Shown here: one piece after another, positions 45,420 to 60,155 of the stretch
Layout: each line of letters starts with the position of its first letter
Numbering within the stretch: position 1 is the stretch's first letter
NCBI GenBank assembly: GCA_025352885.1
Contig: JANXRZ010000090.1
Location: 1 to 64,000, forward strand
DNA from: Pseudomonadota bacterium
GTDB lineage: Bacteria; Pseudomonadota; Gammaproteobacteria; Burkholderiales; SG8-39
Length of the DNA stretch: 64,000 bases
Direction of reading: 5' to 3'
Made by a program: the position numbers and the translations under genes
The notes under the pieces: generated by a model
Told to the model about the DNA's origin: nothing
The model's database searches: none
Seen by the model: the letters and a program-made list of their open reading frames with translations, nothing else

Positions 45420-47387
45420 ATGACAGCGGTGAAGGAGATGTGGTCGCCCTCCCGGGCGGCGATCGAGGCGGCGCAGCTGACTCAGTTCGCGCGCTACTGC
45501 ATCCAGCGGTTCGGCCTCGAGTTCAACACCTACCCCGAGTTCTACCGCTGGAGTTGCGATTCGAGCGAATCCTTCTGGTCCGCATTGTGGGATTGGAGCG
45601 GCGTCCGGGGCGCAAAAGGCAGGCGCATCCTGGTCGACGGCCACAAGATGCCCGGCGCCAAGTGGTTTCCCGATGCAAAGCTGAATTTCGCCGAGAACCT
45701 GTTGCGCAGGCGGGACGCGGGCGACGCGTTCGTCTTCTGGGACGAAACCGGTTTTCGCAGGCGGATGTCGCACGCCCAATTACATGCGCAGGTCTCGCAA
45801 TGCGCGCAAGCGATGCGCGCCGCGGGCCTCAAGCCGGGCGACCGCGTCGCAGCCTTCATCCCGAACATGCCCGAGACGTGCGTACTCGCGCTGGCCGCCC
45901 TCTCGGTCGGCGCGATCTGGTCCTCCTGTTCGCCTGACTTCGGCAGCGACGGCGTGCTGGACCGGTTCGGCCAGACCGAACCGACGCTCTTCTTCTGCGC
46001 GGACGGCTACCTTTATAACGGCAAGACCTTCGACTCGATCCAACGCGCCAAGGAGATCGTGGACCGGCTGCCGAGCGTACGGCAGGTGGTCGTCGTCCCG
46101 AACCTTGGCATGGCGCCGGATGTTTCACCGATCCGTTCAGCCCGGCGGTATGAAGACTGGGTCGCGCCGTACTCGCCGGCCGAGATCGCGTTCGAGCAGC
46201 TGCCCTTCGATCATCCGCTCTACATCCTGTTTACCTCGGGCACCACCGGCAAGCCCAAGTGCATCGTGCATGGGGTCGGCGGGACGCTGTTGTCCGGCCT
46301 CAAAATGTTCAAGCTGCAGTTCGATGTCCGGCCGATGGATCGCTTCTACTATTACACGACCTGCAACTGGGTCATGTGGAACCTGCTTTTCGAGGGACTC
46401 TGCGCCGAAGCGACCGTCATGCTGTATGACGGGTCGCCATTTGCGGGCAATGCGAATAGCACTTTCGACTTCTGCGCGGCCGAGCGCTTCACCCAGTACG
46501 GCACATCGGCGAAATTCATCGATGCGCTTTCCAAGCGGGGCCTGAAGCCGCGCAAGACGCACGACCTGTCGTCCATCCGCATGATCATCTCCACCGGCTC
46601 GCCGCTCGTGCCCGAAAGCTACGACTACGTGTACCGGGATGTAAAAAAAGACGTGTGCCTCGCGTCGATTTCAGGTGGCACGGACATCATGGCCGGCTTT
46701 GCCGACGCCAATCCCATCCTGCCCGTGCACCGTGGGGAACTGCAATGCCGCGGCCTCGCCATGGATGTGCGCGTTTTCGACGAGGACGGCCGCGAACTCG
46801 TTGGAGAAAAAGGCGAGCTGGTCTGCGTGAAGCCCTTCCCCTCCATGCCGGTCGGCTTCTGGAACGACCCGGGCGGCGAGCGCTATCACGCGGCTTACTT
46901 CGACCGCTATCCCAACGTCTGGTGCCATGGGGACTGGTGCGAATTGACCGAGCGGGAAACCATGATCGTGTACGGGCGCTCGGACGCCACGCTGAATCCG
47001 GGCGGCGTTCGCATTGGCACAGCCGAGATCTACGCCCAGGTGGAAAAGATCGATGCGGTCGAGGAGTCGGTTGCGATCGGCCAGTTGTGGCCGCCGCGGC
47101 AACCGACCGACACGCGCGTCGTCCTGTTTGTGAAGCTGCGTCCCGGGCTGGTGCTCGATGCTGCTCTCGAAGACCGGATTCGCCGCCAGGTGCGCGACAA
47201 CACCACGCCCCGCCACGTGCCCGCGAAGATCGTGCAGGTGCCGGATATTCCGCGCACGCGCAACGGCAAGGTCGTGGAGCTGGCGGTGAAGTCGGTGGTG
47301 CACGGGATGCCGGTCAAGCACACCGACGCGCTGGCGAATCCCGAGGCGCTTGACTTGTACCGTGAAATGCCGGAATTGGCAACCTGA
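45420..47387 (+). CDS. aacS: Acetoacetate-CoA ligase
   Basis: A 655-residue adenylate-forming ligase. The ATP loop is TSGTTGKPK (272-280). The segments MPGAKWFPDAKLNFAEN and YYTTCNWVMWNLL are specific to acetoacetyl-CoA synthetases. The C-terminal catalytic lysine lies in RTRNGKVVE. It activates acetoacetate to acetoacetyl-CoA, feeding ketone-body or polyhydroxybutyrate metabolism. GGAG lies a few bases before ATG 45420. It is divergent from the M20 peptidase over 44 bases. Confidence 0.93.
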   Translation: MTAVKEMWSPSRAAIEAAQLTQFARYCIQRFGLEFNTYPEFYRWSCDSSESFWSALWDWSGVRGAKGRRILVDGHKMPGAKWFPDAKLNFAENLLRRRDAGDAFVFWDETGFRRRMSHAQLHAQVSQCAQAMRAAGLKPGDRVAAFIPNMPETCVLALAALSVGAIWSSCSPDFGSDGVLDRFGQTEPTLFFCADGYLYNGKTFDSIQRAKEIVDRLPSVRQVVVVPNLGMAPDVSPIRSARRYEDWVAPYSPAEIAFEQLPFDHPLYILFTSGTTGKPKCIVHGVGGTLLSGLKMFKLQFDVRPMDRFYYYTTCNWVMWNLLFEGLCAEATVMLYDGSPFAGNANSTFDFCAAERFTQYGTSAKFIDALSKRGLKPRKTHDLSSIRMIISTGSPLVPESYDYVYRDVKKDVCLASISGGTDIMAGFADANPILPVHRGELQCRGLAMDVRVFDEDGRELVGEKGELVCVKPFPSMPVGFWNDPGGERYHAAYFDRYPNVWCHGDWCELTERETMIVYGRSDATLNPGGVRIGTAEIYAQVEKIDAVEESVAIGQLWPPRQPTDTRVVLFVKLRPGLVLDAALEDRIRRQVRDNTTPRHVPAKIVQVPDIPRTRNGKVVELAVKSVVHGMPVKHTDALANPEALDLYREMPELAT

Positions 47388-55457: not shown

Positions 55458-56405
55458 CTAGTACAGCGGTGCCGGGATTGATTCCTTGGGTTGCGCGAGG
55501 CTCGTGATGCCCGAGCGACCGGTAATGAAGTCCACCGCCGCTCGCCACACCGGCTCGGCGCGCAGGATGCGGTTATGGCCCAGCCCCTGCGTACTGAGCA
55601 GCCGGGATTTCGGCCAGGCCTTCGCGAACTTCGCGCCCTGCCCCCACGGCACCATGCGGTCGCCTTCGTCATGGATGATGAGTGCTTGGGCGTTGAGTCG
55701 CGGTGCAAGTGTCGCGACTTCGAGCTCGGACCATGCGACTCCATAGCGCTCCTCGATGGCCGCCTGCATGGCGCCCCGGACGCGCTCCGGGATGCTGTGC
55801 CAGCGGGCAAAGCGCCGAGAGTAGGCAACGATGTCCGCCGGGGGGCTGACGAGGACGATTTTCTCGAGCGGCAACCCTTGCGCGAGCGCGTAAGCCGCTG
55901 CGGTCGCGCCCAGCGAATGTCCGATCACCGCGCGCACACCGCCGTCGCGCAGGGCCACTTCACGCAGCGCGCCCGCGAAGTCCGGCAGGCCCGTGAGCCG
56001 CCCCTCGGACAATCCATGCGCGGGCTGGTCGTACGCGATGACGCGAAAGCCCGCGCCCGCAAGATGAAACACGAACCCGCGAAGCTGCGCCGCGTTGCCG
56101 CCCCAGCCGTGGGCGAGCAGCACCGCAGGCTGGTCGTCATCCGTCCCGCGCGGACCCCAGCGCCATGTCGAGATCAGACGCCCCTTGTAGGGCACGAAAG
56201 CTTGGCGCGCGTCGATCAAGTCGAAGAAAGACGATTCCGGATAGTTGGGTTTCGGAGGGGTCAGGAAGAGGCTTTCGGCCCACGCACCGGCAAGCGCCGG
56301 GGAAAACGCTGCGGAGGCCCGCATGGCCGCTCGACGCGCGAGCGTTTGAAATATAAATCGAACGTTCGTGCTATTTACGGTCGGGACTGAAAGCGCGGCA
56401 GGCAT
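55458..56405 (-). CDS. Alpha/beta hydrolase
   Basis: A 315-residue alpha/beta hydrolase. HGWGG (99-103) is the oxyanion loop, S164 the nucleophile (GHSLGA), HDEGDRMVP the acid and GLGHNRIL the histidine. The N-terminal FLTPP region is typical of a proteobacterial esterase group. ATG 56405 has a strong AAGGAG site 7 bases upstream. A palindrome shared with the tetR promoter lies at codons 13-16, so a second, internal start at 56324 is possible. It follows the TetR gene by 30 bases and is probably controlled by it. Confidence 0.85.
   Translation of the reverse strand: MPAALSVPTVNSTNVRFIFQTLARRAAMRASAAFSPALAGAWAESLFLTPPKPNYPESSFFDLIDARQAFVPYKGRLISTWRWGPRGTDDDQPAVLLAHGWGGNAAQLRGFVFHLAGAGFRVIAYDQPAHGLSEGRLTGLPDFAGALREVALRDGGVRAVIGHSLGATAAAYALAQGLPLEKIVLVSPPADIVAYSRRFARWHSIPERVRGAMQAAIEERYGVAWSELEVATLAPRLNAQALIIHDEGDRMVPWGQGAKFAKAWPKSRLLSTQGLGHNRILRAEPVWRAAVDFITGRSGITSLAQPKESIPAPLY
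56350..56368 (-). promoter_or_regulatory. Possible TetR operator and -10 box inside the hydrolase 5' end
   Basis: The palindrome CGAACGTTCG (56359-56368) is followed on the minus strand, after 3 bases, by TATATT (56350-56355). The same palindrome, with the same 3-base spacing to a -10-like box, occurs at the tetR gene. No good -35 is seen. Confidence 0.45.
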
Positions 56406-56435
56406 GGCGTTCTCCTTCGGGTGTTCTAGGGGGGT

Positions 56436-57098
56436 CTAGCGAGCGCGATTCAGGGCAACGGGGCTCGAAGCGGCTTTGGGTGCAGAGGGCGTTGCGTAGC
56501 GCGACAGCAGCGATTCGAAAGCGGCAATCGCCCGGTTTTGGGCTTCCATGTCACCGAGGAGGCGCCCGTGGTGGTGGGCGACCAGCACGATGCCCATCAT
56601 CTCGAATGCGAACTGGTCGGGATCCGTCGATCGGTGCAGGTGGCCGGCTCCGACGGCGAGCGTGACGGCACGTGCGATTACCGAGATTCCCCGGCGCTGC
56701 ATGCCGGCCACCGCATCGCGGATCGGGCCGGGCCGGTCGTCGTATTCGTGCGCAGCGGAGATCAGGATGCAGCCACCCGGGAGGCCCGAGTCGATCGTCC
56801 AGCCAACCCACCGGTTGAACATCGCACGCAAACGGGCCACGCCGCGCTCGACCGAAATGACGGGCTCGACGACGTGGGACGCGAAGTTGCGGGCGCCGTG
56901 GTCGAGGACCGCAAGCTGGAGGCCTTCGCGGGAGCCGAAATGCGCGAAGAGGCCGCTCTTCGACATGTCGGTCGCGTCCGCAAGCGTCCCGATCGTGAGG
57001 CCTTCCAGGCCCAGGCGACTCGCAATGCGCACAGCCTCGTCGAGGATCGCAGCGCGCGTTTCCTCGCCCTTGCTGGCGGTCTTGAGAGCGGCATTCAC
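56436..57098 (-). CDS. TetR family transcriptional regulator
   Basis: A 220-residue repressor. The N-terminal helix-turn-helix reads ETRAAILDEAVRIASRLGLE, then TIGTLADATDMSKSGLFAHF. The C-terminal domain is alpha-helical (TetR_C type) with GWTIDSGLPGGCIL. GTG 57098 is preferred: the alternative TTG 57134 would be the first bases of a -35 box and would place the operator palindrome inside the coding region. The palindrome CGAACGTTCG lies between -35 and -10 boxes, indicating autorepression. The hydrolase gene follows downstream. Confidence 0.87.
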   Translation of the reverse strand: MNAALKTASKGEETRAAILDEAVRIASRLGLEGLTIGTLADATDMSKSGLFAHFGSREGLQLAVLDHGARNFASHVVEPVISVERGVARLRAMFNRWVGWTIDSGLPGGCILISAAHEYDDRPGPIRDAVAGMQRRGISVIARAVTLAVGAGHLHRSTDPDQFAFEMMGIVLVAHHHGRLLGDMEAQNRAIAAFESLLSRYATPSAPKAASSPVALNRAR

Positions 57099-57105
57099 GG
57101 GGAGG

Positions 57106-57134
57106 AGAATAGAACGAACGTTCGTATCCGTCAA
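57106..57134 (-). promoter_or_regulatory. tetR promoter with palindromic operator in the spacer
   Basis: On the minus strand TTGACG (57129-57134) and TATTCT (57106-57111) are separated by exactly 17 bases. The spacer contains ACGAACGTTCGT (57114-57125), a perfect 12-bp palindrome. Only 7 bases separate the -10 box from GTG 57098, so the transcript may be leaderless. There is no ribosome site before this GTG. Confidence 0.65.
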
Positions 57135-57158: not shown

Positions 57159-60038
<2,880 letters not shown>

Positions 60039-60155
60039 CAAGGGCTCTTCAAAGCAAGGCGGTCCCGCGTCTTTTTGACCGGGGACCGCGAAAGTTAACC
60101 TGCTACTATAACGGCTTTCCCGCAGTGCAATAAACCCCTTTCTTCCTTCCCGACG

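Follow-up and report, generated by a model that had tools for sequence, protein, structure and literature searches.

A TetR operator shared by the tetR promoter and the first codons of the adjacent hydrolase gene, and its possible action as a roadblock

A TetR-type regulator encoded in the 64-kb stretch of DNA analysed here (the window, in which all positions are given) appears, judging from conserved sequence, to bind the same word at two places, in the promoter of its own gene (O1) and inside the neighbouring alpha/beta-hydrolase gene (O2). The second site is very probably genuine and selected as DNA, and an operator within a coding sequence has seemingly been kept across several phyla, with the constraint on the DNA overriding the choice of codons. 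On balance we favour, at slightly better than even, a reading in which TetR would repress its own promoter at O1 and use the intragenic O2 as a roadblock to read-through into the hydrolase. The idea of the original prediction, that one palindrome marks both an autoregulated tetR promoter and a second site within the hydrolase gene, stands and is stronger than it was stated.

Locus and comparative sample

The gene order on the minus strand of the window is uvrA, tetR, alpha/beta-hydrolase and a solute-binding protein gene. The upstream neighbour of tetR, an open reading frame at 57159..60041 (minus strand), is presumably uvrA from its own sequence and serves as context only. The tetR gene (56436..57098, minus strand) encodes a helix-turn-helix TetR_N domain (PF00440, 32.5 bits against a cut-off of 24) and the TetR-type C-terminal domain TetR_C_13 (PF16925, 107.7 bits against 27), which together place the protein in the TetR family. 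The hydrolase gene (Abhydrolase_1 by Pfam; open reading frame of 315 aa at 55458..56405, minus strand) begins with an ATG at 56405, 31 nt past the tetR stop codon. Ahead of it stands the Shine-Dalgarno sequence AAGGAG (56412..56417, minus strand), which is conserved in relatives and bears out the ribosome site that had been predicted there.

TetR searches covered 5 genus genomes, 98 family genomes, 399 order genomes (searched with a 13-row alignment) and a named genome collection. A scan of the named contigs with the single TetR protein as query returned no relatives, and an alignment query did find them. Loci were ranked by similarity to the window TetR, and the best 30 from the family genomes, the best 80 of 552 from the named collection and the best 30 from the order genomes were taken. 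We dropped L002-L005 (paralogues of 42-45% identity, without the exact word), exact same-genome duplicates, and the order-level loci L156-L160 and L166, whose genomes were already in the set, before any counts were made. This left 112 non-redundant loci (30 family, 61 named contigs and 21 order), with record titles that span several phyla.

Among the five genus genomes, a full match to the window TetR was found in the source genome (G000) only; three others have a homologue of 42-44% identity and one has none, so that no full-length orthologue was found in the other four. The 3' part of uvrA lies upstream of tetR on the same strand in 14/112 loci, all 14 of which have the hydrolase. Set against the lack of an orthologue in the other four genus genomes, this linkage points to loss or transfer. 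The source bin has a contamination of 5.21%.

A conserved core in the tetR promoter

The exact palindrome CGAACGTTCG occurs at 57124-57115 and at 56368-56359, as predicted, and nowhere else in the window. The number expected by chance was 0.21, and two or more copies arose in 1 of 100 shuffles. However, with one mismatch allowed the window holds 4 such words against 4.8 expected, which is background, and the 4.88-Mb genome contains the palindrome 6 times and the reversed control word 16 times. The decamer alone proves little; conservation carries the case.

The sequence and its conservation define O1 (57108..57125, minus strand) as the first core together with a 3' arm, TTCTATT, that overlaps the -10 box. 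The -10 element TATTCT (57106..57111, minus strand) follows the core by three bases, and the -35 element TTGACG (57129..57134, minus strand), conserved in relatives, lies 17 bp from it with the palindrome in the spacer. At the second site the core is likewise followed after three bases by TATATT (56355-56350, minus strand). This geometry agrees in every point with the original description. TTGAC(A) is found at the matching distance in many relatives, with six of six bases matching in 32/60 O2-bearing loci.

The degenerate core CGANCGNTCG, that is the strict core CGA[ACT]CG[ATG]TCG, stands just before tetR in 93/112 loci, and several of the 19 loci without it are only one or two bases off. In relatives its usual place is the -35/-10 spacer of a promoter that seems to be leaderless. 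A search of the 98 family genomes for the longer form CGAACGTTCGTDCTATT gave 27 matches, and its reversed control gave 0; by their coordinates, 25 are at promoters of this tetR and two (G000 and G088, antisense) are at the hydrolase start. Ten of the 22 plasmid records with a relative were taken, and 8 of these carry the core before tetR.

The distance from the -10 box to the tetR start codon is 6-9 nt in 70/93 relatives, which suggests a leaderless message, and in the window GTG 57098 comes 7 nt after TATTCT. The start of tetR is most likely this GTG and not TTG 57134, and the first palindrome would then lie in the promoter spacer and not in the gene. Thus, of the two palindromes predicted to lie at the 5' ends of two genes, the second is indeed within the hydrolase gene, but the first belongs to the tetR promoter. 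A palindromic operator in the regulator's own promoter is what sequence and conservation give here, and a core conserved in the -35/-10 spacer before this tetR supports the predicted autoregulation.

A second operator inside the hydrolase gene

O2 (AATAGCACGAACGTTCG, 56359..56375, minus strand), which is defined by sequence, conservation and a tree, covers the hydrolase codons N-S-T-N-V-R. In 72/112 loci tetR is followed by a gene for a hydrolase that a profile search (E 1e-10) assigns to the same family. The strict core was present in the first hydrolase codons of 66 of these 72, and all 66 read it in the single frame ACG-ANC-GNT-CG. By source, hydrolase and O2 were found in 14 and 13 of 30 family loci, 50 and 45 of 61 named-contig loci, and 8 and 8 of 21 order loci. 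The O2 record titles include Betaproteobacteria, Actinomycetes (Solihabitans, Nocardioides, Prauserella), Myxococcales, Hyalangium, Acidobacteria, Rokuibacteriota, Methylomirabilota and Desulfobacteraceae; the majority of these records are metagenome bins. As a control, tetR bodies (33,120 nt) contained no copy of the strict core, and the remaining downstream sequence (46,945 nt) contained 2.

An unfiltered check found all 12 fixed bases of AGCACGANCGNTCG in frame in 60/72 hydrolases and one miss in 7 more, and no in-frame occurrence with at most one miss elsewhere in the hydrolase gene (0/71). The six hydrolase loci outside the strict count comprise two near misses (L020 is one base off, and L145 has a G at a position outside the strict pattern) and four loci with no O2 (L094, L100, L103 and L141). 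The search of homologous loci that had been suggested as a check was therefore mostly favourable for both sites.

O2 starts 16-58 nt (median 34) after the hydrolase start codon in the 66 loci, and a Shine-Dalgarno match of at least 4 bases lies upstream of it in 65/66. The tetR stop codon is 2-65 nt from the hydrolase start in 64/66 loci; the other two have 212 and 272 nt between the genes, and in them O2 has kept to the hydrolase start, at 31-37 nt from the start codon. By position, the operator is inside the transcribed coding region in all 66 loci, where a roadblock has to be, and the predicted placement of the second site in a transcribed and translated stretch is upheld.

Selection on the second site as DNA

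In the strict pattern by which the sites were collected, codons 0 to 2 have invariant third bases, and the codon counts and the tree given here are conditional on that pattern. In the 66 hydrolases, codon +1 is AAC, ACC or ATC (25, 21 and 20) and codon +2 is GTT, GGT or GAT (62, 3 and 1), so the residue varies (N/T/I and V/G/D) with the outer bases fixed. Elsewhere in these genes, GTT accounts for 5.7% of valine codons. Outside the filter, codon -2 ends in A or T in 65/66 genes (AAT, AAA, ATT, ATA or TTT), where 21 were expected from each gene's own usage, and the O2 serine codon is AGC in 59 of 60 serines, where 16 were expected. All 10 genes with asparagine at both -2 and +1 use AAT and then AAC, the AAC being inside the filter.

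A tree of 64 hydrolases from the motif-filtered set was built with the O2 codons left out, by a quick search without a mixture model. On this tree codon +1 underwent at least 19 changes at its middle base and codon +2 at least 4, while codons 0 to +2 showed no third-base change; at codons +4 and +5 the third base changed 25 and 30 times, respectively. With residues that change and third bases that stay fixed, O2 looks selected as DNA. S-T-x-V-R illustrates that a short conserved peptide can be the shadow of a DNA site and not a protein motif.

Related sites outside the hydrolase

The strict second core was also found in 5/40 loci without the hydrolase (L019, L105, L133, L135 and L183). L019 has a truncated hydrolase start. 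In Prauserella (L135) the site lies in a GNAT acetyltransferase gene and is read N-S-T-I-D-R, and in Ferrovibrio (L105) it lies in a DUF1127 gene in another frame, read KHERS. L133 carries it in a gene without a Pfam match, and in L183 a similar site falls in the gap between tetR and a different gene. The DUF1127 genes of L120 and L125 carry a slight variant, CGATCGTTCT, which is read KHDRS. In two loci without the hydrolase (L083 and L131), tetR is immediately followed by a GNAT acetyltransferase gene, with no O2.

Cupriavidus campinensis (L224) has an O2-like site between genes, outside the hydrolase frame, and C. metallidurans CH34 (L215) has the same site, probably also before the start codon; in both tetR-hydrolase loci AATAGCACGACTGGTCG stands about 100 nt past the tetR stop codon. 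The intergenic site in C. campinensis and in L183 indicates that a coding position is not obligatory.

A TetR paralogue in the source genome (45% identity, G000:C168) has a similar site, AAAAGCACGATCGCTCG, upstream of itself. Operators at this locus (L225) stand at G000:C168:42535-42551 and 46548-46564, before the paralogue and before a thiolase-like open reading frame, and cross-talk of the paralogue with O1 and O2 is possible. Farther off, 10 of 14 distant matches were looked at, and among them AGCACGANCGTTCG precedes open reading frames that by eye are enoyl-CoA hydratase-like (L189, L190, L193) and acyl-CoA-synthetase-like (L196); in L189 and L190 it stands just after TAGAAT. These four are possible members of a FadP-like regulon.

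Operator anatomy

The arm beside the O1 core, TNCT[AT], is on the right in 71/92 sites and, as [AT]AGNA, on the left in 13/92; 2 sites have both and 6 have none. At O2 the left arm is found in 61/66. Core position 3 is A in 68/71 right-arm sites, with position 6 variable, and C or T in left-arm sites, with T at position 6 in 12/13. Since core and arm vary together, O1 and O2 represent one and the same asymmetric operator, mostly in opposite orientation. The O1 core equals the mirrored O2 core of the same locus in 26/53.

A -10-like hexamer three bases after the core was found in 6/66 O2 sites compared with 36/61 at O1, and the promoter-like score was 3.4 before the hydrolase, 4.1 in tetR bodies and 8.5 at O1. 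No conserved promoter was detected at O2 on either strand by consensus scoring. A role for the TATATT box to which the original prediction drew attention is therefore not supported, and a hydrolase promoter at this hexamer was rejected. An RNA hairpin at O2 was rejected as well: by base counts, without folding, the two free core positions can pair (A-T, T-A, C-G) in 27/66, or 29 with T-G, and pairing is not kept.

Proposed mechanism and alternatives

The shared operator, the DNA-level selection on O2, the operon layout and the lack of a promoter at O2 are all supported at the level of sequence. From them we infer that TetR binds both sites, that it acts as a roadblock and that a ligand is involved. 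TetR would bind O1 between -35 and -10, repressing its own leaderless promoter, and would also bind O2, which lies some 12 codons inside the co-transcribed gene for the hydrolase; there it would block RNA polymerase that arrives from the tetR promoter or from uvrA. The tetR gene would be transcribed at a low, self-limited level and the hydrolase would stay off. Release of the repressor by a ligand would open both sites; as a guess from the neighbourhood, this ligand may be an acyl-CoA or some related ester. Roadblocks are described as working best on weak to moderate promoters (PMC4132739, in the part available), a preference that an autorepressed tetR promoter would match.

No recognisable promoter coincides with O2, so a repressor bound there would most likely be a roadblock, and together with the operon layout and the lack of helical phase this makes a roadblock fit better than a second promoter. 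We put forward more tentatively, and somewhat short of even, a joint set of wider proposals: a TetR operator in the first codons of the target may be a widespread layout, kept across phyla and in unrelated genes; the operator (CGAACGNTCGTNCTA) may be asymmetric in function, with one arm carrying much of the specificity; and with O2 at 16-58 nt, a stalled polymerase might cover or have just passed the ribosome site, so that transcription would be blocked before a ribosome could load and push.

The main rival is looping, in which TetR oligomers would bridge O1 and O2, as happens in gal or lac, and the tetR promoter would be repressed more strongly. Two operators do flank tetR, with arms that face inward in most loci, as counted above. 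However, the O1 arms of 13/92 sites face left, O2 keeps its distance to the start codon and not to O1, and the O1-O2 spacing of 660-1005 bp is unphased (n=61; p 0.18-0.47 over five periods), although phasing is weak at such lengths. We regard looping as unlikely, at roughly one chance in a handful.

It is less probable still that O2 is the target of a relative of this TetR, either the paralogue in the same genome or a FadP-like protein, which would tie the hydrolase to a wider fatty-acid regulon. The motif before the paralogue and its thiolase-like neighbour, and the distant matches in order genomes before enoyl-CoA hydratase-like and acyl-CoA-synthetase-like frames, fit such a role. However, O2 adjoins this TetR's own O1, and O1 implies that the adjacent TetR itself reads the motif. 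Moreover, WWWAGCACGANCGNTCG has 57 matches in the 399 order genomes (26 for the reversed control, counted by eye), and 43/57 lie at most 400 bp from a tetR of this kind, when compared with the best 80 order-genome tetR places, lower-scoring places being left out.

We give very little credence to O2 as part of a promoter, either a hydrolase promoter at TATATT or an antisense one with an extended -10 TGCTWWT. The same rule, core plus three bases, does yield TATATT in sense and TGCTATT in antisense in the window, and the O1 arm TGC (extended -10) coincides with weaker -35 boxes, being present in 7/34 with a perfect -35 and in 19/46 with at most 4 matches. However, the sense hexamer keeps A2 and T6 only in the 6/66 sites and the antisense one in 10/66, and the downstream side of O2 has no conserved sense start codon, the conserved start and Shine-Dalgarno sequence being upstream. 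The antisense promoter, attractive from the mirrored arm, fails on these -10 counts and on its -35, where the best match scores 2.6 against 2.4 for random sequence and 4.8 at O1.

That S-T-N-V-R is conserved for the protein, with the palindrome as a by-product, is largely refuted: the frame is constant and S, T and R vary little, but middle bases change the residue on the tree while third bases hold, a GNAT gene carries the same word, DUF1127 genes read the site in another frame, and the non-coding O1 has the same word too.

Comparison with known systems

Auxiliary operators inside genes are known from a few model systems. In the roadblock of PurR at purB and in the auxiliary operators of gal and lac, a repressor operator lies downstream of the promoter and acts by roadblock or looping; these repressors are of the LacI type, whereas the window system uses a TetR. 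In the literature searched, with RegPrecise and most subscription papers outside its scope, we found no description of an intragenic operator of such a TetR. The solved sequence closest to the window TetR is PDB 2hyj (E 1e-46), with CifR weaker (2e-12).

FadP is a TetR repressor of fatty-acid degradation in Burkholderiales that regulates beta-oxidation operons (PMC5343134, PMC12543098, each in the part available). The comparison with FadP is by description only: both proteins are of the TetR family, but the window TetR is associated with a hydrolase and an intragenic O2. Some of the relatives have an acyl-CoA dehydrogenase gene after tetR; in Comamonas (L219), where this gene is annotated, the tetR product is 40% identical to the window TetR. 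Such loci, with the motif before fatty-acid-like frames, point to FadP. Those motifs are in other genomes and near the paralogue, and are not linked to the window TetR.

PaaR of Burkholderia cenocepacia has an operator, ACCGACCGGTCGGT, that lies between -35 and -10 and contains CGACCGGTCG, and mutations in it were tested with reporters. It resembles the window TetR as a TetR-type repressor with a related core in the same promoter position, but it controls phenylacetate genes, and the operators in the available part of that report are in promoters or the leader, with none in coding sequence (PMC2770484). C.Kpn2I does bind inside a coding region and stall the elongating polymerase (PMC6237814, available part); however, the gene that holds this site encodes the regulator itself, and C-proteins form another family. 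The sites bound by TTHB023, a TetR of Thermus thermophilus, include cores such as CGACCGTTCG and, in the portion of the report available, lie mostly in promoters (PMC7022988), whereas O2 of the window is inside a coding sequence.
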